Shown here: one piece after another, positions 1-64,000 of the stretch
Layout of the letters: the number at the start of each line of letters is the position of its first letter
Position numbering within the stretch: the stretch's first letter is position 1
Assembly (NCBI RefSeq): GCF_001904745.1
Contig: NZ_MRCD01000001.1
Location: 124,001 to 188,000, forward strand
Source: Calothrix sp. HK-06
GTDB taxonomy: Bacteria; Cyanobacteriota; Cyanobacteriia; Cyanobacteriales; Nostocaceae
Length of the DNA: 64,000 nt
Reading direction: 5' to 3'
Notes under the pieces: model-generated
The model's database searches: none
Told to the model about the DNA's origin: nothing
What the model saw: the letters and a program-made list of their open reading frames with translations, nothing else
Made by a program: the position numbers and the translations under genes

Positions 1-389
1 TTGGGAACCATGTAATCAACACCAGGTTGCAGCGCAAAGCTAATTTTGTTACCAACAGGAGAAGGGTCACTACCACCAGCAAGTACTAACCCGGCGCCTA
101 TATAAGCATCAGTTTGCCAGTTCAAAGGAATATCATAAGATACTGTAGGTACAACTGCTGTACTTTGACCTATCAAAGCTTGTGCGCGAAATGATATTGG
201 TGTTTCTAACAACTTATAACGCGCTGCTAAAACTCCTCCTACTTGGATACCATCCGAAAGACCAACAGCAGGTCCAACACCTACATAACTTCCATATGCA
301 ACTTGTGCAGAAGCGGGTTGAGCAAACTGCGTCAATCCCAATATCGAACCAGCGAATACAAGTGATGTCAAATACTTAAGATGCCTCAT
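1..389 (-). CDS. Outer-membrane/porin-like secreted protein, 3' part cut by window edge
   Basis: The reading frame starts at an ATG at 389 and runs off the left edge, so only the N-terminal ~129 residues are visible. It opens with a signal peptide: a basic start (MRHLKY), a hydrophobic stretch, then a cleavage-like PASAQ. The mature part is glycine-rich with alternating residues (YGSYVGVGPAVG, then YIGAGLVLAGG), as expected of beta-strands in a small outer-membrane beta-barrel. The barrel assignment is inference from composition; the family is not identified. It lies upstream of no visible partner, since the next gene (474-2618) shares its strand and precedes it. Confidence 0.6.
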   Translation of the reverse strand, partial: MRHLKYLTSLVFAGSILGLTQFAQPASAQVAYGSYVGVGPAVGLSDGIQVGGVLAARYKLLETPISFRAQALIGQSTAVVPTVSYDIPLNWQTDAYIGAGLVLAGGSDPSPVGNKISFALQPGVDYMVP

Positions 390-418
390 TGCCCTACTCC
401 TCACATAATTTTGAATTA

Positions 419-456
419 GGGGTAAAGGGTTATTTTTCTTACTCTACCCTTTCCCC
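419..456 (-). terminator. Possible intrinsic terminator downstream of the RDD/pentapeptide gene
   Basis: GGGG-T-AAAGGGT (419-430) pairs with ACCCTTTCCCC (446-456) with one bulge. It begins 18 bases beyond the stop at 474 on the minus strand. There is no clean T-run after it, so termination strength is uncertain. Confidence 0.35.
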
Positions 457-473
457 ATTCTTCATTTATAACA

Positions 474-2618
474 TTACGGGCATCGTGGATGAATGCCGCC
501 TTGAGTACAAATGTAGGCTAATTGCTTGGCATCTAGATTTCTGGCTTGGCTAAAATCAACACCTTTTACTACTGCTGACTGAACACCTATTTGAGGTTTC
601 TGTACAAATTGCTCAGAAGGGTCTTGACCGGAACTAGATAAAATTGCTCCTTGAAAATCGGCGCCTGCTACGTTTGCACCTTGTAAGTCTGCTAGACTCA
701 AATCGGCATTTCGCAAACTCGCATTTTCTAAGTTCGCTTTTCGCAATATTACGTTTGTCAACCTAGTCGCATTCAAATTTGCACTACTTAAATTTGCATG
801 GTCTAAATAAGCACCTGATAAATCTGCTGCTTGCCAGTTCGTTTTGGTTAAGTTGGCATAAGATAATTGGGTGCCAATTGCAATTGACCTGCCTAGTTGG
901 GCGCCAAACATTTCGGCATCATTCAATTTAGCTTCGCCAATATCAGCACCTGTAAGGCTAGCATTTTCTAAAATAGCACCGCGCAAATCGGCGCCTACAA
1001 GTTGAGCGCTGCTAAGATTGGCACTTAATAACCGCGCGGAAGATAAATTAGCTTTGTTGAGAGTGGCACCACTCAAGTCGCTTCTATTTAACAAAACCCG
1101 ACTTAAGTTAGCTTCGGTAAAATTTGCCTGCTTCATAGACGTAAACCGCAAATCCGCTGTCCAGTCATCATATGTATCCCAGCGACCATCTGGGCCTGGA
1201 CCCCGAAAACGAGTGTTTTTAAAACTAGCTTGATTCAGATTGGCGCCTCTAAAATTGATGCCCCACAAATTTGTTTTGTCAAGTACCAAATTAAAGAAAG
1301 CGGTTGGACTAGAAACTGTTTGTGATAACTTAGAACGGCTTAAATCAACGTTAACTAATTGACCACTATAAGTTCCGACAATTTTGTTAATCGCTTGCTG
1401 GTTAACTTGTAACTCCTGTTGGTTTTTCAATTGTTCGTTTCCAGAACTTGTATCAACTCCAGTTGCAAGTTGTAAATTTTTACGCTTTAAATAAGGAATC
1501 GCATCAGCACCAACATTAACTAAAGCTTGCTGAATTGTATTAAGAAGAATTGGGTTTTTCTCTTCTGCCAACAAATCTACTAAAAACTGTGTAGCTTGCG
1601 AGTAATTTAAAGTGCCCATCGTCATGATGGTACTTTGACGCTCATCAACACTGGCATTGGAACTTGCTTTCAAACGTTTCTCTAAATCGATAAACTGCTT
1701 ACGATTACCTTCTTCGGTCGTTCGATAATTTTCTTGCGACTGAATATATACTTGGGTACCTACTAATGTCCCTAAAACCGCAGTCATACTCACTAGCGCA
1801 ATGCTAAACAGAGTAATACTAGGGTTGGAAACCATCCAACGCCATAGTCCTGAGCGTCGAATTGTGTCTGGAGACATTACCACTGAGGCAATTGCAGCTT
1901 CTTCATCTGATTCGTTCCACTGTTCCCTAGATTGCTTTAAGCCAGTGTTTGGTGGTATAAAGGGTTTTGTTGCGTCAATTGTATAAGTCCCTGCAATCTG
2001 GTCGTGGAACGCACGACGATTACGCTTTAAAGAAAATCCTGTTGCTTCGCTTAATATTGCAATCCCAGCTAAACCAGTTAAAATTACTAAATTGGGAAAC
2101 GCTGGACTATAACGCCATAATATATAAGCAACAGACATTGGTACACCCCAACGCCCAATTCCTTCGCGTACTAAAATAGGCGCCAAACCCGGTGGTGTTC
2201 CTTGTTCAGAAACAACCCGCACTGCAAACCAACGCTTGGGAATAGTACTGCCTGTCTTTGCGAGTAAATATAACTGCCAACACGAAAGCGTTAAAGGTGC
2301 AATTGCAGCAATCGTCCACAAAATATTTGTGGGTAATGAAACGTTTCGATTTCCATAGCTCACAGGCAATGCTAAAGGACGCGAAACTTCACGCTCAATT
2401 ACTCCAATTACCGGATTCAACGGTACTCTGCTAAATTCGCTTCTTGTATTCGCAAAAGCCCCTATTCCATACGGTATCAACCCACTTACAAACACAATAG
2501 CCACTTCTGCTGCCCAAGCTGCAAGGCGCCTTTTTTTTAAAGACATTACATTTGCCTGTTTGCCAGACTCTCGTGGCTTATTCTCGTTTGTCCCTCTCCT
2601 CACAATTGGGGTTGTCAT
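474..2618 (-). CDS. RDD-domain membrane protein with C-terminal pentapeptide repeats
   Basis: A protein of about 714 residues. The N-terminal ~220 residues hold several membrane segments and an RDD-like domain ending in the RRAFHDQIAGT signature. Another transmembrane helix follows (SITLFSIALVSMTAVLG). Next comes a soluble stretch with HEAT-like alpha helices and then about 230 residues of A(N/D)Lxx pentapeptide repeats, which fold as a right-handed beta-helix. It ends in a Cys-containing tail (AYICTQGGIHPRCP). The start chosen is ATG 2618 because AAGGA lies 8 bases upstream; an in-frame upstream start at 2651 lacks this. Function is unknown; RDD proteins are often transporters, and the repeat domain may bind a partner. 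Confidence 0.75.
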   Translation of the reverse strand: MTTPIVRRGTNENKPRESGKQANVMSLKKRRLAAWAAEVAIVFVSGLIPYGIGAFANTRSEFSRVPLNPVIGVIEREVSRPLALPVSYGNRNVSLPTNILWTIAAIAPLTLSCWQLYLLAKTGSTIPKRWFAVRVVSEQGTPPGLAPILVREGIGRWGVPMSVAYILWRYSPAFPNLVILTGLAGIAILSEATGFSLKRNRRAFHDQIAGTYTIDATKPFIPPNTGLKQSREQWNESDEEAAIASVVMSPDTIRRSGLWRWMVSNPSITLFSIALVSMTAVLGTLVGTQVYIQSQENYRTTEEGNRKQFIDLEKRLKASSNASVDERQSTIMTMGTLNYSQATQFLVDLLAEEKNPILLNTIQQALVNVGADAIPYLKRKNLQLATGVDTSSGNEQLKNQQELQVNQQAINKIVGTYSGQLVNVDLSRSKLSQTVSSPTAFFNLVLDKTNLWGINFRGANLNQASFKNTRFRGPGPDGRWDTYDDWTADLRFTSMKQANFTEANLSRVLLNRSDLSGATLNKANLSSARLLSANLSSAQLVGADLRGAILENASLTGADIGEAKLNDAEMFGAQLGRSIAIGTQLSYANLTKTNWQAADLSGAYLDHANLSSANLNATRLTNVILRKANLENASLRNADLSLADLQGANVAGADFQGAILSSSGQDPSEQFVQKPQIGVQSAVVKGVDFSQARNLDAKQLAYICTQGGIHPRCP

Positions 2619-2840
2619 AAATATTTCCTTTATTCTGAAATTTTTAAGCAATCACAACCTTTATAAATTAAAGGCTATTCAATAGTTAATAGCGAACGAG
2701 TTACAACTTAATATTTCTCAACATATAACTAATCTTTACGTGGGACGATTGGAACCTCTTAATAGTTGCCTTCGTCTATAAAATTAGTTTTTATCAACAC
2801 TTTATCGCTCGTGCGCTTTATGAAGGCGGGCATTATTAAA

Positions 2841-3272
2841 ATGAATATAGGTTTACTATTTAGGCTTGTTCCAGCTGCTTTAGCGATGAGTTTGTGTCTC
2901 ACCGTTGCCAAACAAGCAACAGCAGAGCAAGTAAAAATCAGTCCCAATTTCAAACCAGACCCTCTCACCCTAACGGGTAAATCAGGAGGTTCTAACAAAG
3001 GTAACTGCGGTAATATTGCACCTACTCCAAATCAGGTTATCCAAGTCACTGAGTCATTACCGTATTTACGGTTAACAGTCGAAGGTTCCGGACAACCAAC
3101 ATTACTAATTGATGGACCTGGGGGTCGTTTTTGTGTACTACCTGATAATTACTCAGGCAAGAAGCCCGAAATTACAGGGTTTTGGCAAGCTGGTAGTTAC
3201 TCGCTATATGTAGGTGAATTATCTCAGGGACAGTATAACTATACGCTCTCGATTTCGCAACAGAAGAAATAA
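2841..3272 (+). CDS. Small secreted protein of unknown function
   Basis: The ATG at 2841 gives 143 residues opening with a clear signal peptide (MNIGLLFRLVPAALAMSLCL, cleavage near ATAEQ). The mature part has two cysteines (GNCGN and RFCVL), probably a disulfide, and a C-terminal half rich in Gly/Tyr/Ser beta-strand sequence (GFWQAGSYSLYVGELSQGQ) resembling small pre-peptidase C-terminal-like beta-sandwich proteins. In-frame ATGs at 2820 and 2766 would put extra residues before the signal peptide and lack a good ribosome site. It is divergent from the RDD gene. Function not recognised. Confidence 0.6.
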   Translation: MNIGLLFRLVPAALAMSLCLTVAKQATAEQVKISPNFKPDPLTLTGKSGGSNKGNCGNIAPTPNQVIQVTESLPYLRLTVEGSGQPTLLIDGPGGRFCVLPDNYSGKKPEITGFWQAGSYSLYVGELSQGQYNYTLSISQQKK

Positions 3273-3343
3273 TCAATTGACAACTGTTTAACAAGACTAA
3301 GCTGTCAATTGTTAAAAATACCTACATTTATCATCCAAAATAA

Positions 3344-3715
3344 CTATTCTTCGAGTAATTTCGTAGGTACTTCAACTGCGGTAACATCGATGGTACCTGC
3401 GGGAGTTATGCGATGAAAATGTGAATTTTCCACCGATAATCCTTCTCCGCAGTTCGGACACTGTAATTGTGTATTATTTAATCCTGTAAATTCAAATTGA
3501 CATACTGGGCATTTATCTGCTACCAAGCTTCGTTTCAGCCACCACTGAAAGCCAAAAAAAGCAATAGCTGGCGCCACAAGCAGCAATCCAACGATAATTA
3601 AGACTGAATTAACCAACCAACTCAACCCTAGTGACCCTAGTAACCAAGCAATAGCCACTAGAGTAAGTACAGGACGGAGATTCGATAATTGATACTGGGG
3701 GGATTTAAAGCTCAT
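3344..3715 (-). CDS. Zinc-ribbon membrane protein
   Basis: About 123 residues. Two hydrophobic segments lie at roughly residues 14-60 (VLTLVAIAWLLGSLGLSWLV and the segment after it). A C4 zinc ribbon follows (CPVC at ~70, CPNC at ~89), then a short acidic C-terminus. ATG 3715 is preferred; an in-frame TTG lies two codons upstream at 3721. The layout (two helices plus cytosolic zinc ribbon) is common in cyanobacterial conserved hypotheticals. No function is inferred. It converges with the secreted-protein gene ending at 3272. Confidence 0.65.
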   Translation of the reverse strand: MSFKSPQYQLSNLRPVLTLVAIAWLLGSLGLSWLVNSVLIIVGLLLVAPAIAFFGFQWWLKRSLVADKCPVCQFEFTGLNNTQLQCPNCGEGLSVENSHFHRITPAGTIDVTAVEVPTKLLEE

Positions 3716-3815
3716 TGTCAAACTTATGAATTCAAACTTCTTTTTTGTTCTCTTCCTAGGATAACGATTTTGAAGAAGCGAAGTTATAATCCGTTATAGA
3801 ATAGTGGTAAAAACA

Positions 3816-4976
3816 TTAAAACTGTTTTCTGAGTCGCGCGCTAAAAGCATCAATACCAAAGTGTGATACAACCTGTTCACGTAACCACTCACCATTACAT
3901 CGTTGGTCATCACCCTTAAGTATTTCTATACAAGCTATTGCTACCGCTTTAACATCACGATGTGGAACACGCCAACCAAGCCTACCATTTTGAAGTGGGT
4001 CAGCAGAACCATCAGCATCACCTGCTACAACAGGCACACCACAAGCCATTGCTTCTAAGTACACAATACCAAATCCTTCTTGCGAAGGCATAACATAGGC
4101 ATCAGCCAAACGATAATGCTCAACTAATTCTTCATTTGCTACAAACCCGGCAAACACCACACGTTCTTCTACACCACAATCTACTGCTAAAGACGCTAAT
4201 CTTGGTTGGTCATCACCTCGACCAATCACTAAATATTTTACGTCTGGAAAAACTTTAGCGATTTCAGGTAAAGCTTGTATTGTTATATCTACTCCCTTAT
4301 ATCGGTCTCCCGACCATAGTCTTGCCACGGTCATCAACACCCTAGCATCCTTCAAGCCATAACGTTCTACAAGTGCCGCTGATTTTACTCCCGGCGTAAA
4401 ATAATTATTATTTACTGCACAAGGCAATATTTTTATTTTTTGTGCGTCTAGCTTCGACGCACCATTTACAATTTGGTCACGGGTATAATGGCTTACTGTC
4501 CAAATCGAACTTGCTTTTTGTAAACTTTTAACTGTGAGTGCTGGTAAAGGTTGCCAAACTTCTTTACCATGTGTCATCACCGTGTAAGGAATACCTAAAA
4601 AATTACAAAATATTCCAATTAAACTCGCAAGATTAACGTGTCCACAATAAACATGCTTTGGTCGATGAAGCAGCAAATGCAAAAATAATGCTGCTGCCAT
4701 TCGTATTCTGTCGATTTGAGGCCAATTCGTTTTGAAGTAACGAAACCGTAAGTTCGCAGATTCAAAGTTATTCACGCAATTAGCAGCATCCCGTAGCAAA
4801 AATACTTCTGCACGAATTGCTTCGTTCTTGTCTGTATAAGAGCGAAACACATCTTTTACATAAGATTGAATCCCACCCTCACGGGCAAAAATTTCTAAAA
4901 ATACAAATACGTGACTTGCTGCTTCGATTTTGTTCACAGCTAAATCGTTTATTTTTCTATAACTTGTTTTTAGCAT
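3816..4976 (-). CDS. Glycosyltransferase family 4 (GT-B fold)
   Basis: 386 residues, the usual size for a GT4 enzyme. The N-terminal Rossmann half carries the FAREGGIQSY glycine loop. The C-terminal half has the nucleotide-sugar site LMTVARLWSGDRYKGVD and the E-x7-E motif in EGFGIVYLEAMACGVPVVAG, where the two glutamates contact the donor ribose and catalyse retaining transfer. Donor and acceptor cannot be read from sequence. It is a lone gene with no neighbouring polysaccharide cluster, so a role in exopolysaccharide or lipid glycosylation is only inference. Confidence 0.85.
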   Translation of the reverse strand: MLKTSYRKINDLAVNKIEAASHVFVFLEIFAREGGIQSYVKDVFRSYTDKNEAIRAEVFLLRDAANCVNNFESANLRFRYFKTNWPQIDRIRMAAALFLHLLLHRPKHVYCGHVNLASLIGIFCNFLGIPYTVMTHGKEVWQPLPALTVKSLQKASSIWTVSHYTRDQIVNGASKLDAQKIKILPCAVNNNYFTPGVKSAALVERYGLKDARVLMTVARLWSGDRYKGVDITIQALPEIAKVFPDVKYLVIGRGDDQPRLASLAVDCGVEERVVFAGFVANEELVEHYRLADAYVMPSQEGFGIVYLEAMACGVPVVAGDADGSADPLQNGRLGWRVPHRDVKAVAIACIEILKGDDQRCNGEWLREQVVSHFGIDAFSARLRKQF

Positions 4977-5108
4977 TTGGTTTATATATAAAAGGGTTCG
5001 TTTGTAATACTAAAATGGTACGCACCCTAAATTTAAGTATTTATCCTGAATATTTTCTTAATTTTGACACAAATTTTACTTAACATATATAATTTTTCAA
5101 ATCATAGC

Positions 5109-5135
5109 AAAAAAAAACCGCAACTAGAAATGCGG
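5109..5135 (-). terminator. Intrinsic terminator after the anti-sigma factor gene
   Basis: Read on the minus strand: CCGCA (5131-5135 complement) pairs with TGCGG (5118-5122 complement), followed by nine consecutive T. It lies about 110 bases beyond the stop of the gene at 5247-5705. Confidence 0.7.
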
Positions 5136-5246
5136 CGTTTACGTAATTATTGATTTAATTTTATACAAATTCATTCAAAATTTACTCTTCAAATTTGCTG
5201 TGCTGTAAGTGAGGCGCCGAGTCTTGTCATGATTCGTTGACGTTGA

Positions 5247-5705
5247 TTATTGACCGATTAAAGCGTATTTAACTATGAGCAAACAATTTCGACCGTCGAG
5301 CGTGCGTTCGTAAACAACACGGTCAGCCAAACGTCGTAGTAAAAACCAACCATAACCTCCAACTTGAAGAGTACCTGGTTCCGGTTCCCTAATCGCATCA
5401 GGGTTAAAAGGTTTACCCCGGTCCCAAATTCTAATTTCGAGTCGGTCAAGAAACAAACAAACATCAATATCAATAGTTGTCTCTGGTGGTAAAGCGTGGT
5501 GAGCATGACGAACAGCGTTCGTAAAACCTTCTGCCAACGCGAGATTAAGACGGTAAAGTTGGCTTTCAGACCAACCTCCTGGCGATAGGTACTTCAGACA
5601 AAATTGTTCAAACCATTGTTGTACTTGGTTTAGAAGCTTTAGTTCGCTCTTTACCGTCAGATGGTCTTGCTGCTCCATGCCTAGCATTGACCTTGACTTA
5701 AACAC
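5247..5705 (-). CDS. Anti-sigma regulatory factor / serine-protein kinase (RsbW-type HATPase)
   Basis: 152 residues forming one GHKL ATPase domain. The N box is ALAEGFTNAVRHAHH, the G1 box is WDRGKPFNP, and a G2-like box is GGYGWFLLRRLAD. In this family the kinase phosphorylates an anti-sigma antagonist (STAS) protein or sequesters a sigma factor. No STAS partner or PP2C phosphatase is adjacent, so its target is elsewhere. An internal start at MLGMEQQ would shorten it by six residues. A structured RNA-like stretch (5838-5913) lies just upstream. Confidence 0.85.
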   Translation of the reverse strand: MFKSRSMLGMEQQDHLTVKSELKLLNQVQQWFEQFCLKYLSPGGWSESQLYRLNLALAEGFTNAVRHAHHALPPETTIDIDVCLFLDRLEIRIWDRGKPFNPDAIREPEPGTLQVGGYGWFLLRRLADRVVYERTLDGRNCLLIVKYALIGQ

Positions 5706-5837
5706 TATGCAGGTTAATCGTTATTTTCAGTTAGGATCGTGATGTACAGATTTTATACTAAATGATTGAAACTAATGTCAAATTTATTGAGGCAAATCTT
5801 ACCGATTCTTATTATTTTGCTTCATATTGACGACATT

Positions 5838-5913
5838 TTCCACAGAATACATGACGCCTGCGCTCATTTCGCTCTGTGGAATTATCCCACAATAACGAAA
5901 CTCACAGGCGTCA
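5838..5913. other. Two interleaved 9-bp stems (candidate pseudoknot) between anti-sigma gene and petD
   Basis: Stem 1: TTCCACAGA (5838-5846) with TCTGTGGAA (5873-5881). Stem 2: TGACGCCTG (5852-5860) with CAGGCGTCA (5905-5913). The 5' arm of stem 2 lies in the loop of stem 1 and its 3' arm outside, which is a pseudoknot order on either strand. It lies 33 bases past the petD stop and 133 bases before the anti-sigma start, both on the minus strand. The long open frame here (5766-5960, +) looks non-coding. Confidence 0.4.
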
Positions 5914-5945
5914 AACCGTTAGAAAACCATTATAAGGCTATTGGC

Positions 5946-6428
5946 TTAGAACAATCCTAAAGTCAAAGACTTGTCGATTGGGAAGGTGGCGCCAATACCA
6001 AGCCAGATTGTTACCAAAGTACCGAACAAGAATACAGCGGTAGCAACAGGACGACGAAATGGATTTTGGAATTTATTAACGTTCTCAATAAAAGGAACGA
6101 GTATAAGACCCAGTGGTACCGCAGCCATTAAGAATACGCCGATAAGTTTGTTAGGAACCGTGCGTAGAATTTGGAATACAGGGTACAAATACCACTCTGG
6201 TAAAATTTCCAAAGGTGTTGCAAAAGGATTTGCAGGTTCACCAGTCATCGCGGGGTCAAGAACTGAGAGTGCTACGATGCAAGCAAACGAACCCATGATT
6301 ACTACTGGGAAAATATACAGTAGGTCATTAGGCCATGCAGGTTCACCGTAATAGTTGTGACCCATGCCTTTTGCCAGCTTGGCTCTTAAAGTTGGGTCTG
6401 AGAGGTCAGGTTTCTTTTGTGTTCCCAT
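5946..6428 (-). CDS. petD: Cytochrome b6-f complex subunit IV
   Basis: 160 residues, exactly the family length, starting [20 protein letters not shown]. It has three transmembrane helices and the [13 protein letters not shown] segment of the quinol-oxidising (Qo) site. With cytochrome b6 it forms the quinone-binding core of the thylakoid b6-f complex. ATG 6428 is the conserved start; a GGAG lies about 12 bases upstream. An upstream open extension to 6611 overlaps petB and is not coding. petB lies 110 bases upstream on the same strand, the standard petBD operon. Confidence 0.97.
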
Positions 6429-6538
6429 TTTAGATATGCTCTCCTGCGTTACTGTTTGAGTTAAAGCATTTATTTGGCGTTGATTAGGTGCAACTAATGT
6501 TGCATCCAGTGTAACGAGCGAAAAAAATACGCTCGTTC

Positions 6539-20436: not shown

Positions 20437-21693
20437 CTATTGTGGTTGTGCTTGAGTTGGGAAAGCTCCAGGACGAACAGAAATAACTACATTTTGACCA
20501 TTGCGACGTACATCCATACGTAAATCGGTGCCGATTTTGCTATCTTCGACAGCTTTTTGAACGCTGTCAGCATCAGCGACGGGTTGACCATTGAGTTTTT
20601 CAATAATGTCTCCTGCACGAATTCCTGCTTGTGCTGCGGGAGAGTTGGGAACTACCCGACGTATCAAAACACCTTTATCGCTGTCAACATTTAAACCGCT
20701 ATTTGGGTCAGAGTTAATATTTTCTTTTAACTCTGGGCTTAAAGCTTGCATTTGAATACCCAAGTAAGGATGTTGAACTTTGCCTGTTGCAATTAATTGG
20801 TTGGAGATGCGCTGTGCTGTGCCAATTGGAATTGCAAATCCTAAACCTTGCGCTCCTTGAATAATAGCGGTATTCATGCCAACAACTTCACCCCTAGAGT
20901 TGAGCAATGGACCACCTGAGTTACCTGGGTTAATTGCTGCATCGGTTTGAATGTAACTAACACGCTTATCTTGGGCGCCAATTGAATTACTACTACGACC
21001 AGTAGCACTAATTACCCCTGTAGTAACTGTATTATCTAAACCAAGCGGATTGCCAATGGCAATAGCTGATTCACCAGCTTGCAGTTGGTCGGAATTTCCA
21101 ATTGTCACCGTTGGTAGGTTGTTTGCCTGAATCTTTACAACCGCAACATCAGTTAATTCGTCTTTACCAATAACTTTGCCTTGAAAACTACGACCATCTT
21201 TTAACGTTACCTTTACTGTGTCGGCACCGTCAATTACGTGGGCATTCGTCAAAATGCGACCATCTGCACTGAGTATAAACCCTGAACCTGTACCGCGCTC
21301 GACTCGCTTCTGCTCAGGAATTTGTCCTTGGGCGCCAAAAAAGCGACGGAAAAACGGGTCATTGAATTCATCAGGTAACGAAGCTTTAACGGTACGCGAA
21401 GAATCTATCCTCACAACCGCAGGTCCAACTTTGTTTACAACGTTGGTTACAAAATTCCCCTCCCCAATGGGTGCAGAAGCAGCTTTGACCGACCCAACAA
21501 CAAGGTTCGATGCATCTTTTTGTTGGTGTCCAGCAATATAACCACCTGCAAGCGTCATACCTGACCCGACTAATACCAGGGATAGATTAAAAATAGCTCT
21601 TCCCCAGAGTCGATGACCCTTGGAGTTGAGAGTTTGATTATTTGATTCGTTACTTTCGTTATTATATTGGTCGTTTGGTTCTTTGTTTAACAT
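20437..21693 (-). CDS. Deg/HtrA-type serine protease with one PDZ domain
   Basis: 418 residues. An N-terminal membrane anchor or signal (IFNLSLVLVGSGMTLAGGYI) precedes the trypsin-like domain. The catalytic triad is His in LTNAHVID, Asp in ELTDVAVVK and Ser in NPGNSGGPLL. One PDZ domain lies at ~320-410 (GVLIRRVVPNSPAAQAGIRA). Cyanobacteria carry HhoA, HhoB and HtrA of this build, degrading damaged extracytoplasmic and photosystem proteins; which one this is cannot be decided by eye. The Gln/Asn-rich N-terminal 25 residues are variable. Confidence 0.92.
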   Translation of the reverse strand: MLNKEPNDQYNNESNESNNQTLNSKGHRLWGRAIFNLSLVLVGSGMTLAGGYIAGHQQKDASNLVVGSVKAASAPIGEGNFVTNVVNKVGPAVVRIDSSRTVKASLPDEFNDPFFRRFFGAQGQIPEQKRVERGTGSGFILSADGRILTNAHVIDGADTVKVTLKDGRSFQGKVIGKDELTDVAVVKIQANNLPTVTIGNSDQLQAGESAIAIGNPLGLDNTVTTGVISATGRSSNSIGAQDKRVSYIQTDAAINPGNSGGPLLNSRGEVVGMNTAIIQGAQGLGFAIPIGTAQRISNQLIATGKVQHPYLGIQMQALSPELKENINSDPNSGLNVDSDKGVLIRRVVPNSPAAQAGIRAGDIIEKLNGQPVADADSVQKAVEDSKIGTDLRMDVRRNGQNVVISVRPGAFPTQAQPQ

Positions 21694-53606: not shown

Positions 53607-53608
53607 AA

Positions 53609-55491: not shown

Positions 55492-56799
55492 GTGAACATT
55501 GACGCCATAATCAAACCATTTCAACGCTTTGGGGTACATCTAGGACTCCAAAGAATACATAAGCTTTTAGAGAACTTAGGAAATCCTCACCTGCAAGTTC
55601 CATTTATTCACGTAGCGGGAACTAACGGTAAAGGTTCAGTTTGTGCTTACCTGTCTTCGGTTCTTACAGAAGCAGGTTATCGAACAGGACGCTATACTTC
55701 TCCTCATCTTGTTGATTGGACAGAGCGTATTACCCTAAACCAAGAACCAATATCAAAGCGAGATTTATCTAGTGTGATACTTCAAGTACAAGCCAAAATT
55801 GACCCGAATGAAGAATCACCCACACAGTTTGAAGTAATTACCGCAGCCGCTTGGTTATATTTTGCCCAGCAAAACGTTGATATTGCCATTATTGAAGTCG
55901 GGTTAGGAGGGCGCCTAGATGCAACTAATGTTAGTTCTCAACCATTGGTATCTATAATTACATCTATAAGTAGAGAACATTGGCAGCAGCTTGGCCCGAC
56001 TGTTGCTGACATCGCGCGCGAAAAAGCAGGAATTATCAAAGCTGGTTGTCCTGTAGTAGTGGGACAATTACCGTTTGATGCCAAAGAAGTAGTGCTGAAG
56101 CGCGCTCAAAAACTAGATTGTCCTACTTATGTACTGCAACCCGCTTTGCAGCTACATGAAGGATGGGCACAATATTCATCAATCTTTGAGTCAAAACCAA
56201 TTAAATATCCTTTGCCATTAGCAGGACAAATTCAGCTATTTAATTCTGCCCTTGCATTAGCCGCATTAGAAATTTTACAAAAACAAGGCTGGCAAATTAC
56301 AGAAGGTGCCATTATTCAAGGAATGGCTTTAACAAAATGGCCAGGTCGAATGCAGTGGACTCAGTGGCAATATAACAACACAACCTATAAATTGCTGCTT
56401 GATGGCGCCCATAATCCAGCTGCTGCTGTAGTATTACGTAATTACATAGATTCGCTAAATGTCAAATCAGTGAGTTGGGTAATGGGGATGCTTTCGACCA
56501 AAGAACACGACGAAGTATTTAAAGCATTATTACGACCGAATGACCTATTATATATAGTGCCAGTACCTGACCATAGTTCAGCACAACCTGAAGAGTTAGC
56601 ACAACTTGCTAATCAAATTTGCCCATTAAAAAGTTGCCAAACTTATACAAATTTACAATCAGCACTTAATGCTGCTTTTGCCTTACCTGAACTAAATTAT
56701 TTTGACTTCGATAATTTTACAGATAAGGCGCCGAAAGATTTAGTAGTTCTGTGCGGTTCGCTGTATTTAATTGGTTACTTTTTAGGAATGCCCGAATAA
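55492..56799 (+). CDS. folC: Dihydrofolate/folylpolyglutamate synthase
   Basis: 435 residues from GTG 55492. P-loop HVAGTNGKGSVCAYLSSVL, then ALAALEILQKQG, and LLDGAHNPAAAVVL near the C-terminus, diagnostic of the Mur-ligase-like FolC. It adds glutamate to dihydropteroate or folates in the cytosol. It starts right after hairpin D, and the MFS gene begins seven bases past its stop. Confidence 0.93.
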   Translation: MNIDAIIKPFQRFGVHLGLQRIHKLLENLGNPHLQVPFIHVAGTNGKGSVCAYLSSVLTEAGYRTGRYTSPHLVDWTERITLNQEPISKRDLSSVILQVQAKIDPNEESPTQFEVITAAAWLYFAQQNVDIAIIEVGLGGRLDATNVSSQPLVSIITSISREHWQQLGPTVADIAREKAGIIKAGCPVVVGQLPFDAKEVVLKRAQKLDCPTYVLQPALQLHEGWAQYSSIFESKPIKYPLPLAGQIQLFNSALALAALEILQKQGWQITEGAIIQGMALTKWPGRMQWTQWQYNNTTYKLLLDGAHNPAAAVVLRNYIDSLNVKSVSWVMGMLSTKEHDEVFKALLRPNDLLYIVPVPDHSSAQPEELAQLANQICPLKSCQTYTNLQSALNAAFALPELNYFDFDNFTDKAPKDLVVLCGSLYLIGYFLGMPE

Positions 56800-56805
56800 A
56801 CGAAA

Positions 56806-57972
56806 ATGAATAAACCAGTAAATGCGCTACCTGTTCGTTTAACTTTACTATTTGTTAGTACGCTTACGGTTATGGCAGGCGCCACTATTGCCCCATCGTT
56901 ACCTGCGATGCGGCAATTTTTTGTTTCGGTTAATAATGCTGATTTTCTTGTGAGGTTAGTTTTAACGGCACCTGCTTTATTTATTGCTCTTGGCGCCCCT
57001 GTTGTTGGTGTACTAATTGATAACTTTGGACGCAAGCCATTATTAACAGTTGCTTTAGCAATATATGGTATAGCTGGAAGTTCTGGGTCGTGGATAGATT
57101 CTTTAGGATTTATTTTAGTTGGACGTGCGCTACTGGGAATGAGTGTGGCAGGTGTGATGGTAACAGCTACTGCTTTAATTGCTGACTATTATGTAGGCGC
57201 CGCACGGGGACAGTTTTTGGGTTTACAAGCTGCGTTTATGGCATTGGGAGGAGTTGTATTTCTGACTTTCGGTGGCTTTTTGGCTGATGTTAATTGGCGC
57301 CTGCCGTTTTTAATTTATTTGGTTGCTTTAGTTTTAATTCCCTGTGTTGTTTTTCTATTGCCTGAGCCGATAAAAAATAATTCTGGTGATATTACAAGTG
57401 AAGAAATTATAACAAAGTTACCGATAGCTGTAATAGCTACTACTTATATTGCAGCATTTTTATCACAAATAGTGTTTTATATGACACCAGTGCAATTGCC
57501 GTTTTATCTTAAAGATTTAGTGAATGCAAATGCGTCTCAGAGTGGATTAGCAATTGCTTTTGCCACGTTTTTTTCGGCGGTAACTTCATTACTTTATCAA
57601 CGTATAAAATCACGTTTTATTTTTTTAAGTATTTATGCAATCGCTTTTCTAAATATTGCTGTTGGATATGGGTTTATTAGTTTGGCAAAAAGTTTTCCTG
57701 TTGTGATGGGTGGGTTAGCAATTACGGGTTTGGGGCTTGGAGCGCTGATGCCGAATATGAATTTTTGCCTTACTTCTATAATACCTCGGATGGCGCGGGG
57801 ACGAGTTTTAGGTGGGTTGACGACTAGCTTTTTTCTGGGACAATTTTGTTCTCCTTTGATTAGTCAACCTTTAAGTTTAAAAGTTGGGTTGAGTGCAACT
57901 TATGGCGCGGGAGCTGTGATGATGTTGGTGATGAGTTTGATTACTGTGGTTATGTTGGTGCGGTGGAAGTAA
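56806..57972 (+). CDS. MFS transporter
   Basis: 388 residues with 12 predicted helices. Motif A is GVLIDNFGRKPLL after helix 2. Resembles Bcr/EmrD-like or sugar-type drug exporters, but the substrate is unknown. It starts seven bases after folC, so is co-transcribed. The CDS is followed by a palindrome pair that ends both this and the convergent lipoprotein gene. Confidence 0.85.
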   Translation: MNKPVNALPVRLTLLFVSTLTVMAGATIAPSLPAMRQFFVSVNNADFLVRLVLTAPALFIALGAPVVGVLIDNFGRKPLLTVALAIYGIAGSSGSWIDSLGFILVGRALLGMSVAGVMVTATALIADYYVGAARGQFLGLQAAFMALGGVVFLTFGGFLADVNWRLPFLIYLVALVLIPCVVFLLPEPIKNNSGDITSEEIITKLPIAVIATTYIAAFLSQIVFYMTPVQLPFYLKDLVNANASQSGLAIAFATFFSAVTSLLYQRIKSRFIFLSIYAIAFLNIAVGYGFISLAKSFPVVMGGLAITGLGLGALMPNMNFCLTSIIPRMARGRVLGGLTTSFFLGQFCSPLISQPLSLKVGLSATYGAGAVMMLVMSLITVVMLVRWK

Positions 57973-58067
57973 TTTATTTAATGTTGTAGGTTATAAAATT
58001 TTGTGGGATGGGCTTTTTCTTGCCCCGTCCTTTGAAATCGGTTATTCGAGTTTTTGCGTTGAGTTTG

Positions 58068-58133
58068 AGAAACCGGGTTTCTTTTTCTTTGGTTGAAGAT
58101 TGTTTTGTTTAGTGTGAAAGAAACCCGGTTTCT
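58068..58133. repeat. Paired AGAAACCGGGTTTCT palindromes
   Basis: Copies at 58068-58082 and 58119-58133 around a T-rich spacer. The second ends six bases before the stop of the minus-strand lipoprotein gene (58139). Confidence 0.75.
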
Positions 58134-58138
58134 GGGTT

Positions 58139-59443
58139 TTAAGTTTGTTGACTATTCCATTCTTTTTCGGCATCAGCGATTGCTTGGTCTACGGTTTTTT
58201 CATTTAGCATTGCTGCTTGGAGATTGTCGTAGATTGCTTTTTGTAGAACGTTGAAGTTCTTTAATGTTGGTGTTAGTACTTCTGCTTGTTGTAGTTGGGT
58301 GGCACTGACTGTGCGTGCTTTATCGTAGGTTTCAGCATTTGCTGGTACTTCTTTAAAGTAGCTGTCAGCTAGAGCTTTTACGGTTGAGGGTAAGACGTTG
58401 GCTGCTTTGGCAAAAGCTAATTGGTTTTGGTCGTTGGTTAGATATAGGGCAAATTTTACTGCTGCGTCAGGTTTTTTGGTGTCGCGGGGGATAACAACGT
58501 TCATGACTGCGACGTTTTTCTTGCCTGTTTCACCTGTAAGCTGAGGTGCTATGGAACTTGCTTGAGCTATTTTAGGCGCATTTTGGGCAATTGTTTTAAG
58601 AAATTCTGGGCCAGAAGTTAACATTGCTGTTTCTCCTGACTGGTACAAATTTATGCCGTGTCGGTGTCCTTTCGTAAGTGCTTCTTTGGGAAGACTGCCG
58701 TTTTTATACAAGTCTACCCAGTACTGAAATGCTGCTTTGCCTTGGGGGCTGTTAAAGGCTGCTTTGTTCGATGCATCTAGCAAGTTTACTCCCATTTGTA
58801 CGAAAGACTCAAGTACTTCCCCTGAATCTTGTGGGACAAATGTTACAAAAAAGGCATACTTACCTGTTTTGTCTTTAATTTGTTTAGCAACTTGTGCGAG
58901 TTCAGTATATGTACTGGGCACTTTTGCTATCTCTGCCTGTTTTAATAAATCAGTGTTATAAATGGTTAACCGAGTCGTGAGGTACCAGGGTATACCGAAA
59001 CTCTTGCCGTTTAACGTACTCGCTTTCCATATGTTGGGAAGATAGGAGGAACGAACATCAGCAGGAATCTTCGCGTCTAAGTCTAACCAAGCGTTTCGTC
59101 CAGCTAATTGCGATGCGAAGCCAGGATTTAGATTCACCACATCAGGTGGCGTTTTCGCGGAAACAGCTGTTAAGATTTTGTTCTCCATTCCATCCCAAGG
59201 TATATCTACCCAGTTAACCTTTATACCTTGATTTTGCGATTCAAAACTCGTAATCAAGTTTTGAAAGTAGTCGTTAAACTTTGGTTTCAACGACATAGTC
59301 CAAAACTCGATTTTGGCGCCGCTTTCTGAGGTTTGGCTTGTGGTATTGGAGGTGTTGCCTGTACTACAACTGACAATCCAGGTTGTCAATAAGCCAAGTA
59401 AGGCACACACTGTTAGTTTTTTAAACTTTTGGACAGGAATCAT
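58139..59443 (-). CDS. Sugar-type ABC transporter substrate-binding lipoprotein
   Basis: 434 residues. Lipoprotein signal with LTTWIVSCSTG, then the family-1 fold (KIEFWTMSLKPKFNDYFQNL; DVVNLNPGFASQLAG; TAMLTSGPEFLKTIAQ). It would deliver a carbohydrate to an ABC importer in the periplasm. No permease or ATPase lies next to it, so its membrane partners are elsewhere. Confidence 0.88.
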   Translation of the reverse strand: MIPVQKFKKLTVCALLGLLTTWIVSCSTGNTSNTTSQTSESGAKIEFWTMSLKPKFNDYFQNLITSFESQNQGIKVNWVDIPWDGMENKILTAVSAKTPPDVVNLNPGFASQLAGRNAWLDLDAKIPADVRSSYLPNIWKASTLNGKSFGIPWYLTTRLTIYNTDLLKQAEIAKVPSTYTELAQVAKQIKDKTGKYAFFVTFVPQDSGEVLESFVQMGVNLLDASNKAAFNSPQGKAAFQYWVDLYKNGSLPKEALTKGHRHGINLYQSGETAMLTSGPEFLKTIAQNAPKIAQASSIAPQLTGETGKKNVAVMNVVIPRDTKKPDAAVKFALYLTNDQNQLAFAKAANVLPSTVKALADSYFKEVPANAETYDKARTVSATQLQQAEVLTPTLKNFNVLQKAIYDNLQAAMLNEKTVDQAIADAEKEWNSQQT

Positions 59444-59572
59444 TGTAAGAGATGGTTTTTGGGTTAATAAGGGTAAAAGACGAATACAGAATTGCGGTGA
59501 TTATAGGTTAAATAAATTAATTCGTAAGTGGGTATGTGTAACTAAATCATTATTTGAAAGCAAAGAAACCTA

Positions 59573-59639
59573 AGAAACCGGGTTTCTGTTCCGAGATTTT
59601 TGGTTTTTATGTAGACCTTTACAAAGAAACCCGGTTTCT
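59573..59639. repeat. Paired AGAAACCGGGTTTCT palindromes upstream of pilM
   Basis: Copies at 59573-59587 and 59625-59639 around a short spacer, in the divergent promoter region of the lipoprotein gene and pilM. Confidence 0.75.
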
Positions 59640-59700
59640 GAATAGTTCGTACTTTAATCATAAAAATATTTCATAGTTCTTCAGTTCTGCGGTCAAAACT

Positions 59701-60807
59701 GTGCTTAAACGCTTTAACAGTCCATTTGGGAAATCTAATAAAGGGGTGGGCATCGAGCTGGCGCCACAACGGGTTAATATTGCCCGCATTCGCAAACAGC
59801 GTCAAGGTCTAAAACTAGATGCTTTAGCATCGGTTCCTGTTCCCGAAGGTGTCTTCGTTGATGGTCAAATTGCCGACCCACCAGCGATGGCACAAATTAT
59901 CCAGCAGGCACTTGCCGAAAGTAAAATCAAAGTTTCTAAAGTAGCAACTGCCGTACCTGGTCGTGATTCTATTGTGCGTCTAATACCTGTGCCAGCAGAG
60001 TTAGACGATAAAGAACTGCGAGAAATGGTGCTTAACCACGAAGCAGGGTTGTATTTGCCATATCCTCGTGAAGAAGCTGATGTAGATTATCAGAAACTTG
60101 GTTACTTTGTCGATGAAGATGGCATTGAAAAAGTTCAGGTGTTACTTGTAGCAACGCGCAAGGATGTTACTGATACGTATATCAGGACATTTGAGCAGGC
60201 AGGGTTACAAGTCGATGTTCTAGAGATAAGCAGTTTTGCGCTGATTCGGACGATTCGTGAACAATTACGGCAATTTGGTCCACAGGAAGCAGCTGTGTTA
60301 GTTGATATTGAGTTCGACAGCACGGAAATTGCCATTATTGTCAACGGTGTACCGCAGTTCTCGCGAACAGTACCAATTGGTACGTATCAGATGCAAATGG
60401 CGTTATCACGTGCGATGAATTTACCAGCATCGCGCGATATGGAACTCTTACAAGGGATGACAATTCCTTCGAGCGGAATGGATGGTGGTAAAACTGGGCA
60501 AACCGCTGTTAACCCTGGTATGGCAGCGATGATGAGGGTTTTAGGAGAACTTACCGATGAATTGCGTCGTTCGATAGATTTCTACTTGAATCAAAGTGAA
60601 AACCTAGAAGTCGCGCAAATATTGCTCGCAGGACCTGGTGGTGGACTAGCACAGATGGATGAGTTCTTCACTCAACGCTTGAGTTTGCCTACTACCCAAA
60701 TTGACCCAGTTGGCGCCAATTCTCTTGCTATCGACGATGAAAAATACCCAACAATGCAACGTCCTGGACTAGGGATAGTTCTTGGTCTTGGAATGAGGGA
60801 GGTATAA
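59701..60807 (+). CDS. pilM: Type IV pilus assembly ATPase-like protein PilM
   Basis: 368 residues from GTG 59701. Actin-like fold: GVGIELAPQRVNIARIRKQR (phosphate 1), AVLVDIEFDSTEIAIIVNGV (phosphate 2), then ILLAGPGGGLAQMDEFF. In the family PilM is cytosolic and binds the PilN tail. It opens the pil operon; pilN begins four bases after its stop. Confidence 0.93.
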   Translation: MLKRFNSPFGKSNKGVGIELAPQRVNIARIRKQRQGLKLDALASVPVPEGVFVDGQIADPPAMAQIIQQALAESKIKVSKVATAVPGRDSIVRLIPVPAELDDKELREMVLNHEAGLYLPYPREEADVDYQKLGYFVDEDGIEKVQVLLVATRKDVTDTYIRTFEQAGLQVDVLEISSFALIRTIREQLRQFGPQEAAVLVDIEFDSTEIAIIVNGVPQFSRTVPIGTYQMQMALSRAMNLPASRDMELLQGMTIPSSGMDGGKTGQTAVNPGMAAMMRVLGELTDELRRSIDFYLNQSENLEVAQILLAGPGGGLAQMDEFFTQRLSLPTTQIDPVGANSLAIDDEKYPTMQRPGLGIVLGLGMREV

Positions 60808-60811
60808 GCAA

Positions 60812-61594
60812 ATGTACAGTTTAGATATTAATTTTCTCAAAGACCGGGCGCCAACTCCAAAGAATGATGGCACCAGAATCAAGAAAGCTCCCATGTCACC
60901 AGGAGATTTAACTCCTTTGTACATAGGTGGAGCAGTTGCAGCTTTTAGCCTAGCGATAGTTGGAACTGGATGGTGGATTTTACAAGGACAGAATGAGCAG
61001 TTACAGCAAAATATTGCCAAATTAGACCAAGAGAACCAACAATTAGAAGCTCAAATTGGGAATATTAATAAAATCAGACAAGAAATCACTCAAGTTAAGA
61101 GTGAAACCCAAGCTCTGGTGACAGTATTCGACCAAATTCGTCCTTGGTCTGCCATACTCCAGGATGTTCGAGAGCGTATTCCTGCCTCAGTACAGTTGGA
61201 AAACGTTAAACATATTGCGGCTTCCTCGGCGCCTGCGGCAGCATCAACACCTCCAGCAGCAGGACAAACACAAAGCCAAGCAGGAGCAATCGAACTAGGA
61301 GGATTTGCGCGTTCTTTTGCTGATGTCAATGACTTTTTGGTGACATTACAACAATCGCGATTCTTAAAAGCTAAAGAAGTGCGAATCACGAATGCCGAGT
61401 TAGCAGAAGCTCCAACACCTCCAGGTGGACTCCCCCAAGGAGCAAAGCTACCAAAGGTAGTGAAATACACTATCCAATCTAGTCTGAGTGATGTTCCAGC
61501 ATCCGAACTAATGCGCGAATTAGAACAAAAAGGTACAGTTGGACTAGTGGCTCGTATTCGTAGTTTGCAACAAACAGGAGCGCTTCAGCGATGA
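60812..61594 (+). CDS. pilN: Type IV pilus inner-membrane protein PilN
   Basis: 260 residues. A short cytosolic tail (MYSLDINFLKDRAPTPKNDG) with the conserved LDINFL PilM-binding motif, one membrane helix (~35-57), a coiled coil (~58-105) and a periplasmic ferredoxin-like domain. An Ala/Pro-rich loop (ASSAPAAASTPPAAGQTQSQ) interrupts it. It overlaps pilO by four bases (ATGA). Confidence 0.92.
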   Translation: MYSLDINFLKDRAPTPKNDGTRIKKAPMSPGDLTPLYIGGAVAAFSLAIVGTGWWILQGQNEQLQQNIAKLDQENQQLEAQIGNINKIRQEITQVKSETQALVTVFDQIRPWSAILQDVRERIPASVQLENVKHIAASSAPAAASTPPAAGQTQSQAGAIELGGFARSFADVNDFLVTLQQSRFLKAKEVRITNAELAEAPTPPGGLPQGAKLPKVVKYTIQSSLSDVPASELMRELEQKGTVGLVARIRSLQQTGALQR

Positions 61595-62364
61595 CTTATA
61601 GTGAAGATTTAGATTTTGAAGGTGGTGGGTTTGAAGAAGCCGCTCCTCCGTATCCCGTCGTTTTTGGTATAACTTTTACACCAAAAATCGGCGGTATCTT
61701 AATCGGGTTGCTAGGACTTGGTGGAGCAGCTTTTGTAGTTATGAACATGGTTTTACCAAGTTGGGAAACATTCCAACAGCAGCAAACCAAGCAAACCGAC
61801 TTACAAGGTCAAATTCAGCAGAAAAAAGACAGCATCAAACAAATTGACAGTGTAAAAAAAGAACTAGCTCAAGCTAAAGTTCAGCAAACACAGGTATTAG
61901 GCTTATTTGCCAACGAAAATACCTTAGACACACTGCTAATTGATTTGAACCGACTAGTAGAATCAGGTAACGATTTGCTACCAGGAAACGCCGTCAAAGC
62001 CAAAATGCGGAAATACACACCCGACGCTCAAAAGACTGAAATCATTAACGATGGAACTTTTGGTCCATTAGTCAACGGCAAATTAAAACGTAGCAAAATA
62101 AACATTGAGTTTACGGGTACATACGATCAAACCCAGTCAATTCTTCGCAATATCGAGCGATTACAGCCATTATTGCTAGTTAAAGACTACGACTCAAAAC
62201 TCAACCAAGAAGTAGCTAACGACGCACTAGGAAAACCAATCCGAATGATTGGCCCAGTCCAAATTTCTACAAACTTCCAACTACAAGCGCTAATGCCACT
62301 CACACCCGAAGAAACAGCAGCAGCGCAAGCAAAACCAGCACCCGCAGAGGCGCCGAAACAGTAG
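61591..62364 (+). CDS. pilO: Type IV pilus inner-membrane protein PilO
   Basis: 257 residues. A cytosolic start, one helix (IGGILIGLLGLGGAAFVVMN), a coiled coil and a ferredoxin-like periplasmic domain (NLDELIDLNRLVESG-type). It heterodimerises with PilN to bridge the motor to the secretin. Its stop codon TAG lies within a GTAGAGACGCG repeat that starts at 62361, so the last codons were set by repeat insertion or the repeat landed exactly on the stop. Confidence 0.9.
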   Translation: MTYSEDLDFEGGGFEEAAPPYPVVFGITFTPKIGGILIGLLGLGGAAFVVMNMVLPSWETFQQQQTKQTDLQGQIQQKKDSIKQIDSVKKELAQAKVQQTQVLGLFANENTLDTLLIDLNRLVESGNDLLPGNAVKAKMRKYTPDAQKTEIINDGTFGPLVNGKLKRSKINIEFTGTYDQTQSILRNIERLQPLLLVKDYDSKLNQEVANDALGKPIRMIGPVQISTNFQLQALMPLTPEETAAAQAKPAPAEAPKQ

Positions 62365-62388
62365 AGACGCGATTAATCGCGTCTGTAC
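62361..62388. repeat. GTAGAGACGCG palindrome at the pilO stop
   Basis: GTAGAGACGCGATT (62361-62374) with AATCGCGTCTGTAC (62375-62388), one mismatch. STRR-like AGGAGTTAGGAGTT follows at 62389-62403. Confidence 0.75.
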
Positions 62389-62547
62389 AGGAGTTAGGAG
62401 TTGTAACGTCCCTCTATTTCTATATACGTAAAAAAAACACGCGAACAGGTTCAATTCAAATAATGGCAGCAATGTGAAATTTTGATTCAAATCTAACGCC
62501 CCACAAAACTAAACAAACTTTTACTTTATTTTCAGTGAGGAATGAAC

Positions 62548-64000
62548 GTGAAACTTCACGGTAATATAAATAGTGCTTTCGTCCTTGGCGCCACTGCTGC
62601 AATCTTCGCAGCACAGCCAGTTTTCGCGCAAACCACGCAAGTAACCCGCGTAAAACTAAACCCCGTTGATTCAGGAGTCAACCTAGTATTAGAAGCATCT
62701 TCTGGAGAACGCGCCCAAGTATTTACAACCAAACGCGGCAACACCCTAGTAGCCGACATAATTAACACCCAATTACGTTTACCAGAAGGTAACAACTTTC
62801 GTCAAGATAATCCTGCCCCTGGTATTGCCTCAGTAGCAATTAACCAACTCGATGCCAACAGCGTTCGCGTCGTAGTTACAGGTAGCAATGGAACTCCAGG
62901 CACCCAACCAGTAGCACGCAGTCGCGACGGTTTAACCCTCAGTTTCACACCTGGCGACGGAACAGTAGCAGCAACACCTCCCACAGTACCCACAGCACCA
63001 CTGGCGCCACCTGCTGGCATTAGCAACGCTCAAACCGCACCCACAACAGGCCCCGGTCAACCTTCCAACGTTGCACCGCCATTCTTACCACGTGCAGTGG
63101 CGCCACCAGTAGGAGACATTGCAATTTCCGCAATAGACGCATCACCCAGCGTAATTGATTTAGGAACACAAGAACGAGTACCTCGCTTAGTACTACGCGA
63201 TGCACCAGTTCGTGAAGTCCTATCATTACTTGCGCGCGCAGCCAACATGAACTTGGCATACTCATCAGTAGACCCAACCGCAGCAGCAGGTGGACAACCA
63301 GCAGCTTCGGGACCTGGAGAAGGACTCAAAGTATCGCTCGACATTCAAAACGAACCCGTACAAGACGTATTTAATTATGTTTTACGCTTAAGCGGACTAG
63401 AAGCAAACCGCAGTGGACGTACAATCTTCGTAGGTCCCAGACTGCCAAACTCTAGCCGCGATACAGTAATGCGGAACTTACGACTTAACCAAGTAACAGT
63501 CGATGTAGCATTGAACTTCTTAGTTGGTTTAGGCGCCGAAAGTGCCATTAGCAGAGAGCGTCAAGTTACCAGCGTTAGTGCAGTACCTGTAGGACAAGGC
63601 GCCAACCCTGTAACTCAGACTCAAACCACTACAGAAACAAGAGTTGAACGTTTATCATTAGAAGACTCTAAATACTCTTCACCTTTACTTCGAGGTTTAC
63701 AAGCACTAGGAGACCAACGTACTAACTCTCTAACTTTAATTGGTACGCCAAAGCAAGTTGAATTAGCAATGGCACAGTTAAGTCAGCTGGATGTGAGGCG
63801 GCGCCAAGTGGCAGTCAACGTCAAAATTGTTGACGTTAACTTGTCAGGAATAAAGGATTTTAACACCAGTTTCTCTTTTGGTATTGGGAACAATTTCTTC
63901 ACTAGTGATGGTGGTTCTGCAAATTTAAACTTTGGCGGTTCCAGACCTGCAACCAGCGCTGAAGCAAGCGGTAGTTTAACTAGCACACCAACAATTGCTA
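62548..64000 (+). CDS. pilQ: Type IV pilus secretin PilQ, 3' end cut by window
   Basis: Open to the right edge, about 484 codons seen. Signal peptide (MKLHGNINSAFVLGATAAIF, AQA cleavage), an AMIN domain (~35-125) for peptidoglycan binding, a Pro/Thr-rich linker (~140-185), then a secretin short N-domain (VLRDAPVREVLSLLARAANM) and N-domain repeats; the secretin pore itself lies beyond the edge. GTG 62548 is preferred because GAGG ends seven bases before it; ATG 62542 lies only one base past the same GAGG. No pilP gene lies between pilO and pilQ. Confidence 0.92.
   Translation, partial: MKLHGNINSAFVLGATAAIFAAQPVFAQTTQVTRVKLNPVDSGVNLVLEASSGERAQVFTTKRGNTLVADIINTQLRLPEGNNFRQDNPAPGIASVAINQLDANSVRVVVTGSNGTPGTQPVARSRDGLTLSFTPGDGTVAATPPTVPTAPLAPPAGISNAQTAPTTGPGQPSNVAPPFLPRAVAPPVGDIAISAIDASPSVIDLGTQERVPRLVLRDAPVREVLSLLARAANMNLAYSSVDPTAAAGGQPAASGPGEGLKVSLDIQNEPVQDVFNYVLRLSGLEANRSGRTIFVGPRLPNSSRDTVMRNLRLNQVTVDVALNFLVGLGAESAISRERQVTSVSAVPVGQGANPVTQTQTTTETRVERLSLEDSKYSSPLLRGLQALGDQRTNSLTLIGTPKQVELAMAQLSQLDVRRRQVAVNVKIVDVNLSGIKDFNTSFSFGIGNNFFTSDGGSANLNFGGSRPATSAEASGSLTSTPTIA

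Follow-up and report, generated by a model that had tools for sequence, protein, structure and literature searches.

GGCGCC is the alternate highly iterated palindrome of Calothrix sp. HK-06 and its genus and bears a C-to-T footprint at its third base

Introduction

The genome of Calothrix sp. HK-06 (Nostocaceae) includes a stretch of 64,000 nucleotides, positions 124,001 to 188,000 of the forward strand of contig NZ_MRCD01000001.1 (assembly GCF_001904745.1), that was analyzed at its full length and is referred to here as the window. The palindrome GGCGCC was found in it 114 times by word count (positions 1..64000, no strand assigned), with first bases at 93, 660, 900, 990, 1242 and onward to 63532, 63598 and 63800, against 3.9 copies expected from base composition. 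The copies are located both in genes and in gaps: 104 are within open reading frames (ORFs) of at least 100 codons, in codon phases 58/20/26 (phase 0 reads Gly-Ala), and 10 are outside them. The octamer GCGATCGC, the highly iterated palindrome (HIP) known as HIP1, is absent from the window, where CGATCG occurs once and GATC seven times. A preliminary description of the same DNA had estimated about 110 copies of GGCGCC against 4-6 expected, in genes, gaps and all three phases, and had not seen HIP1; the counts agree with it on each of these points.

Few words in bacterial DNA are described as being so abundant as the HIP words, and how they arose is an open question. GGCGCC was reported by Elhai in 2015 as the alternate HIP of Calothrix PCC 7103 and D253 (PMC4390886). 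According to that report, PCC 7103 has two GRCGYC methylases, a broken CGATCG methylase gene, a GATC count that is 16% of the expected one and possibly a GATC nuclease. The model put forward there has G-m5C directing mismatch repair, which requires that the inner C is methylated, and the same report states that the methylated base is known for no GRCGYC enzyme. Its account also describes alternate HIPs as sporadic rather than clade-wise, proposes that the gain of a second methylase copy was possibly critical, and remarks on a tendency to polyploidy in this group of cyanobacteria (PMC4390886). A literature search for GGCGCC together with Calothrix or with cyanobacterial methylomes, which left most subscription journals outside its reach, found only this paper. 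The word described here is therefore the known alternate HIP, already in print for one strain; the present analysis confirms and extends that finding.

Results

The whole genome (9,990,453 bases) contains 15,449 copies of GGCGCC, about 1,546 per Mb, which places it within the genome-wide density of about 1000-2000 per Mb expected of a GC-rich palindrome that acts as an alternate HIP. CCGCGG, which is GGCGCC read backwards, occurs six times. HIP1 is nearly absent, as expected where an alternate HIP is found: the genome has 88 copies, and the octamer is not over-represented. The maximal-order Markov expectation for the window, 60.7 copies, is inflated by GGCGCC itself because 114 of the 122 GGCGC words begin GGCGCC. 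In a 464-kb sample consisting of the window and 20 stretches of 20 kb, 760 copies were counted against 15-20 predicted by Markov models in which both GGCGCC and HIP1 were masked, and even unmasked the word was at the top of all 4096 hexamers, at 21x. The excess is thus neither confined to the window nor close to a Markov expectation, the two outcomes that the preliminary description had named as those that would undo its claim.

The placement of the copies in this sample is similar to that in the window. ORFs of at least 100 codons hold 677 of them (phases 357/135/185) and 83 are outside, at a density of 0.93 per kb; the Gly-Ala phase accounts for 53-56% of the copies located in ORFs. The mean spacing is 586 bases with a coefficient of variation (CV) of 1.05, random placement giving 0.95-1.10, and 3.2% of the gaps exceed 2 kb (3.3% under Poisson). 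Neither the CV nor the long gaps revealed regular spacing in the 464 kb. Evenly placed copies would have hinted at selection for marks on the strand, and this idea was rejected since the spacing fits random placement. Counts per 20 kb are more variable than Poisson (variance 57.9, mean 32.3).

To place these numbers in context, 150 genomes were compared: seven of the genus, including HK-06 (G000), 83 others of the family and 60 of other families. All seven genus genomes carry 7,475-20,380 copies of GGCGCC, about 1,150-1,710 per Mb, while an excess was found in none of the 83 other family genomes, where no count is above 603. GGCGCC abundance is therefore a clade trait of the genus, an answer to the comparison with relatives that the preliminary description had proposed. 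A set of 76 loci from other cyanobacteria (41% GC, 1.42 Mb) contains 13 copies against 125 expected. HIP1 is found 31-163 times per genome in the genus and thousands of times in most of the others; outside the genus, counts below 700 were found in G086 (30), G146 (74), G096 (134), G107 (206), G028 (535) and G109 (673). Among the 60 genomes of other families, the GGCGCC counts that stand out are those of G146 (9,489), G097 (2,493), G090 (1,106), G147 (1,062) and G125 (1,031). The last four, with 1,031-2,493 copies, have no match at E 1e-30 to the HindV-type methylase described below.

G146, which belongs to the same order and another family, first resembled a second case, with its GGCGCC count, a HindV-type methylase, few copies of HIP1 and no match to the DmtC-like family described below. 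It was not retained as an independent origin because the enriched words in 219 kb of its genome are CGGCGCCG, CAGCGCCG and AGCGCC, with GGCGCC at only 2.7x, and its standing as a second origin of the word is ambiguous. The HIP-like set formed by CGGCGCCG and CAGCGCCG reaches 14-17x (loci L281-L292), AGCGCT is not enriched, and a C5-methylase of this genome, L268, forms no cluster with those of the other genomes in the comparison. Within the genus of G146, G124 retains HIP1 and a DmtC-like match and G096 has neither; in 80 kb of G096 (L293-L296) no comparable replacement word was found, only weaker words of the GGCCCTGG type at up to 5x.

A candidate for the enzyme that recognizes GGCGCC was sought among the C5-methylases. 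The PF00145 matches of the seven genus genomes (9-17 per genome) were listed and the full-length and most partial ones clustered. Two families are present in all seven, L003 (mostly 302-335 aa) and L004 (370-398 aa). The L004 family is found in 77 of the 150 genomes, the seven of the genus and 70 others, and was discarded as the marker of GGCGCC because it is too widespread and has no tie to the word. L003, the HindV-type family, has members in 41 genomes and encodes a PF00145 C5-methylase, as expected of the HindV family. HindV recognizes GRCGYC, which includes GGCGCC. The HindV nuclease family RE_HindVP (PF09519) was found in 27 genomes, all among those 41, and a genome-wide search found it in none of the seven of the genus. 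At 22 of the 27 loci read outside the genus, one protein family (c1) adjoins the HindV-type methylase, and the one member scanned is RE_HindVP (PF09519, E 5e-156). The 27 genomes with both genes contain 0-88 copies of GGCGCC each, and the pooled loci of 22 nuclease-bearing genomes (352,791 bases, six extra stretches included) contain GGCGCC three times, GGCGTC twice (both strands) and GACGTC once, against 21, 36 and 16 expected. This avoidance of GRCGYC words, together with the PF09519 neighbor, indicates that the specificity of the methylase-nuclease pair is GRCGYC. The solitary and the nuclease-linked enzymes have nearly identical target-recognition stretches; four of the seven genus enzymes show a single G-to-S difference there. 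A plasmid relative with 53% identity is annotated hindVM.

In G001-G006 the methylase gene is found at one conserved, nuclease-free locus. HK-06 has an intact copy on contig C60, which by its sequence should be able to modify GGCGCC, and the first 85 codons of the conserved-locus copy, 94-98% identical to those of G004-G006, at the end of contig C29; a C-terminal piece at the end of contig C207 (80% to L003) may be the other part of the latter copy. A single HindV-type match at E 1e-30 was found in G001 and in G004, so one methylase copy is enough for the upkeep of the word. The conserved locus adjoins a gene for a RuBisCO-like protein in six genomes (L112-L117; PF00016, one member scanned). 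Further HindV-type copies are found in G003 on plasmids. The loci L118, L120 and L121, which hold further copies, have GGCGCC at 3.0-3.7 per kb, roughly double the density in the genome sample (1.6 per kb), and the other such loci (L119, L122 and L124) have 1.2-1.75 per kb.

The loss of HIP1 was examined in the same genomes through a C5-methylase family common to four HIP1-rich genomes, referred to here as DmtC-like, which was chosen for the absence of genus members from its cluster and whose specificity is presumably CGATCG. It has a match in 132 of the 150 genomes, that is, in none of the seven of the genus and in 132 of the other 143. Matches to PF02086, examined in regard to loss of a GATC methylase, were found in all 150 genomes, with the types not separated.

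If the word is methylated, mutations should leave a trace in it. The forms expected from deamination of the third base (C3) are GGTGCC and, on the other strand, GGCACC. The window holds 17 such words on the plus strand, 14 GGCACC and three GGTGCC, the latter located by word search at 870..875, 20527..20532 and 56305..56310; any of the 17 may also be of another origin. In the 464-kb sample, 139 were counted against 76 expected under a trinucleotide model, which gives 1.83x and 1.87x in the genus and 0.34-0.38x in nuclease-bearing genomes and the 76 loci. Under a tetranucleotide model the sample has 1.06x, and the values are 1.06x and 1.09x in the genus against 0.25-0.28x in the comparison sets. 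Since the count excess depends on the background model, the footprint was based on alignments, one of three species (G000, G002 and G005; 72.6 kb) and one of five species (61 kb). The three-species alignment has 151 GGCGCC sites common to at least two species, and 38 of the 52 losses are C-to-T changes at C3. Over both sets, the C-to-T rate at C3 is 2.30 (1.92-2.59) compared with 0.89 for cytosines with the same neighbors; among the five species, C3 changed on a single branch in 27 cases and was unchanged in 120, compared with 48 and 620 in the controls (Fisher p = 1e-4). Changes at position 2 (0.26 vs 0.57) and transversions at C3 (0.06 vs 0.28) are rarer than in controls. Because C-to-T changes concentrate at C3, the footprint points to 5-methylcytosine at this base, of which it is an indirect sign as regards methylation in the cell. 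The C3 hot spot offsets the rarer changes at the other positions of the word.

Over longer distances a different picture was obtained. In the comparisons with G001 (83-84% identity), which cover 11 kb per genome in five pairs that share the same G001 sites, 49 of 60 site comparisons are intact and three are deaminated; those with G003 gave 62 and three of 71. GC-rich control hexamers were retained at 34-45% in these pairs. In single pairs, 11 of 14 GGCGCC were kept between G001 and G002 against 104 of 285 controls (p = 0.003), and 17 of 18 between G003 and G002 against 190 of 425 (p = 3e-5). Arithmetic from the measured C3 rate predicts that, without return or purge, about 0.4 of the sites should be deaminated at the G001 distance; as only 3 of 60 are, deaminated forms seem to be short-lived. 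The data do not separate biased repair from selection as the agent that removes them. Where T is the majority base, T-to-C changes were found at 4 of 9 sites and at 54 of 742 controls (p = 0.003). In the five-species set, 27 deaminated forms are confined to a single branch and one is common to sister species, the controls giving 48 and 11 (p = 0.09).

Other words of the HK-06 sample are also unusual in number. Many hexamer palindromes are all but missing from the 464 kb, with no copy of TTCGAA (168 expected), CCATGG (64), GTGCAC (62) or CGTACG (51), and GATC was counted 118 times against 1,117 expected. TTCGAA and GCATGC are comparably rare in the 76 loci from other cyanobacteria.

Discussion

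The genus resembles the published case of PCC 7103, which is the congener G005 of the genome set, in the word, the replacement of HIP1, the GRCGYC methylase and the depletion of GACGTC and GATC (PMC4390886). The present analysis differs from that report in covering a further genome and all seven of the genus, in finding that one methylase copy is enough, and in measuring the C3 footprint and the turnover of sites. Like HIP1, GGCGCC is a GC-rich palindrome found within and between genes, about once per 650 bases, and linked in print to solitary methylases, but it is another word, without a GATC or CGATCG core. The methylase is of the same family as that of the HindV restriction-modification system; the genus differs from this system in having no RE_HindVP and in that one HindV site, GGCGCC, is enriched rather than avoided.

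With moderate confidence, we propose that a nuclease-free HindV-type methylase marks GGCGCC at C3 and that a repair bias favoring the methylated word maintains the sites. The ancestor of the genus would have lost HIP1, probably together with the CGATCG methylase, and a HindV-type C5-methylase (GRCGYC) whose partner nuclease was gone would have been left marking the DNA. The enzyme would modify the third base on both strands, GG(m5C)GCC, and the methylated C3 would turn to T faster than cytosines with the same neighbors, with deaminated words failing to accumulate over longer times. A process favoring the methylated word over its one-base neighbors would keep, and presumably built, the approximately 1,500 sites per Mb; such a process is suggested by the failure of deaminated words to accumulate and by the low rates, relative to controls, of position 2 changes and C3 transversions. 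The likeliest candidate is methyl-directed mismatch repair of heteroduplexes, whether these arise from replication errors or from recombination between the several chromosome copies in a cell. If the strand with G-m5C served as the template, GGCGCC would spread by biased conversion. A broader and rather unlikely possibility, which we offer as speculation, is that a solitary restriction-type methylase makes its own target self-spreading through heteroduplex repair in cells with many chromosomes, about 15,000 old sites being held genus-wide despite the hot spot. A known parallel is the very-short-patch repair of Escherichia coli, in which C5-methylated Dcm sites are C-to-T hot spots and Vsr biases repair back toward the site. 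The case described here differs from it in that Vsr (PF03852) was found in none of the 150 genomes at E 0.001, in a search whose control matched 5 of 14 known genomes, and Vsr was rejected on this ground as the source of the repair bias. Of the earlier suggestion that the switch of word reflects a solitary methylase, mismatch repair or strand marking, the tie to such a methylase has been strengthened by the absence of RE_HindVP from all seven genomes and by the footprint; selection for even marks on the strand, in contrast, found no support in the spacing.

Several observations weigh against maintenance by methylation and biased repair. GACGTC (0.07-0.12x) and GGCGTC (0.46-0.52x), which are GRCGYC words too, are depleted in the genus relative to 0.42x and 0.87x in other cyanobacteria, so that being methylated is not in itself enough to protect a site. 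Nor is a HindV-type methylase without RE_HindVP sufficient: G027, G050, G067 and G075 have 3-277 copies of GGCGCC, and G074 (split gene) and G009 (fragment) are also nuclease-free and within this range. In close relatives, GGCGCC was lost 52 times against 73 expected (0.71), as were 45 control hexamers (476 against 661, 0.72), and all three species retain 99 of the 151 sites (0.66), the GC-rich hexamers giving 0.66-0.67 by class; the deep comparison, in which the sites do outlast controls, is a small one. Six traceable gains, where 1.1 were expected, each started from the deaminated word and would favor the proposal, but some of them may be parallel losses, and 12 further single-species copies are not traceable. 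The maximum likelihood T-to-C return rate is 10.8 (4-21) against 0.70 if all sites mutate alike; with an invariant class, rates of 0.3-30 fit nearly equally well, so the rate is not identified and a raised return is not robust to site heterogeneity. This heterogeneity is real, as deamination losses are uneven among coding phases (26/82, 1/24 and 9/33; 2/12 outside ORFs). The aligned sets showed no raised gain at position 2. As for the loss of HIP1, the absence of the DmtC-like family from the seven genomes is not an independent test, the independent part being its presence in most of the others, and G026, G037, G074, G089, G119 (an assembly 61% complete), G127, G137 and G149 have no DmtC-like match at E 1e-60 and yet hold 2,514-8,259 copies of HIP1.

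Ordinary selection could instead keep each GGCGCC for a function of the site, as a strand mark or a signal in recombination or segregation, the terminal C-to-T changes being young harmful variants that are purged. The deep conservation above GC-rich controls and the confinement of most deaminated forms to single branches would fit such a process. Spacing is irregular, though, conservation in close relatives is no better than in controls, and selection would have to act at each of about 15,000 sites, for which no function is known; we regard this explanation as doubtful. It is unlikely that another methylase of the genus, for instance an N4-cytosine enzyme or another C5 family, marks the word. 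The numerous PF00145 matches and the presence of the L004-type family in all seven genomes leave room for one, as does the search for N4 and N6 enzymes, which covered PF02086 only. Against this, L004 is common outside the genus with no other family genome showing a GGCGCC excess, only for the HindV type do a partner nuclease and the avoidance of sites point to GRCGYC, and a C-to-T footprint favors C5 over N4 methylation. More improbable still is that an earlier expansion left the sites behind as a relic, which now decays without upkeep. The finding that, of 151 sites, 52 have changed in one of the three close species, no fewer than controls, would fit a relic, and gains traceable solely to deaminated words agree with it; however, at 83-84% identity the sites outlast controls with few in the deaminated form, and seven genomes retain a high density. 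Codon usage, protein demand or base composition, to which the Gly-Ala share might point, can be dismissed, as the preliminary description had argued, because the word is found in all phases and in non-ORF DNA and is scarce in relatives.

For the biology of the group, the mutation footprint points to the inner C, which is the base that the published model requires, and GGCGCC is an alternate HIP common to all genus genomes examined, in contrast to the sporadic occurrence presented in that account (PMC4390886). The question of what keeps GGCGCC in these genomes has been sharpened, not solved, and the closely spaced genomes of the genus let gain and loss be counted at single sites.

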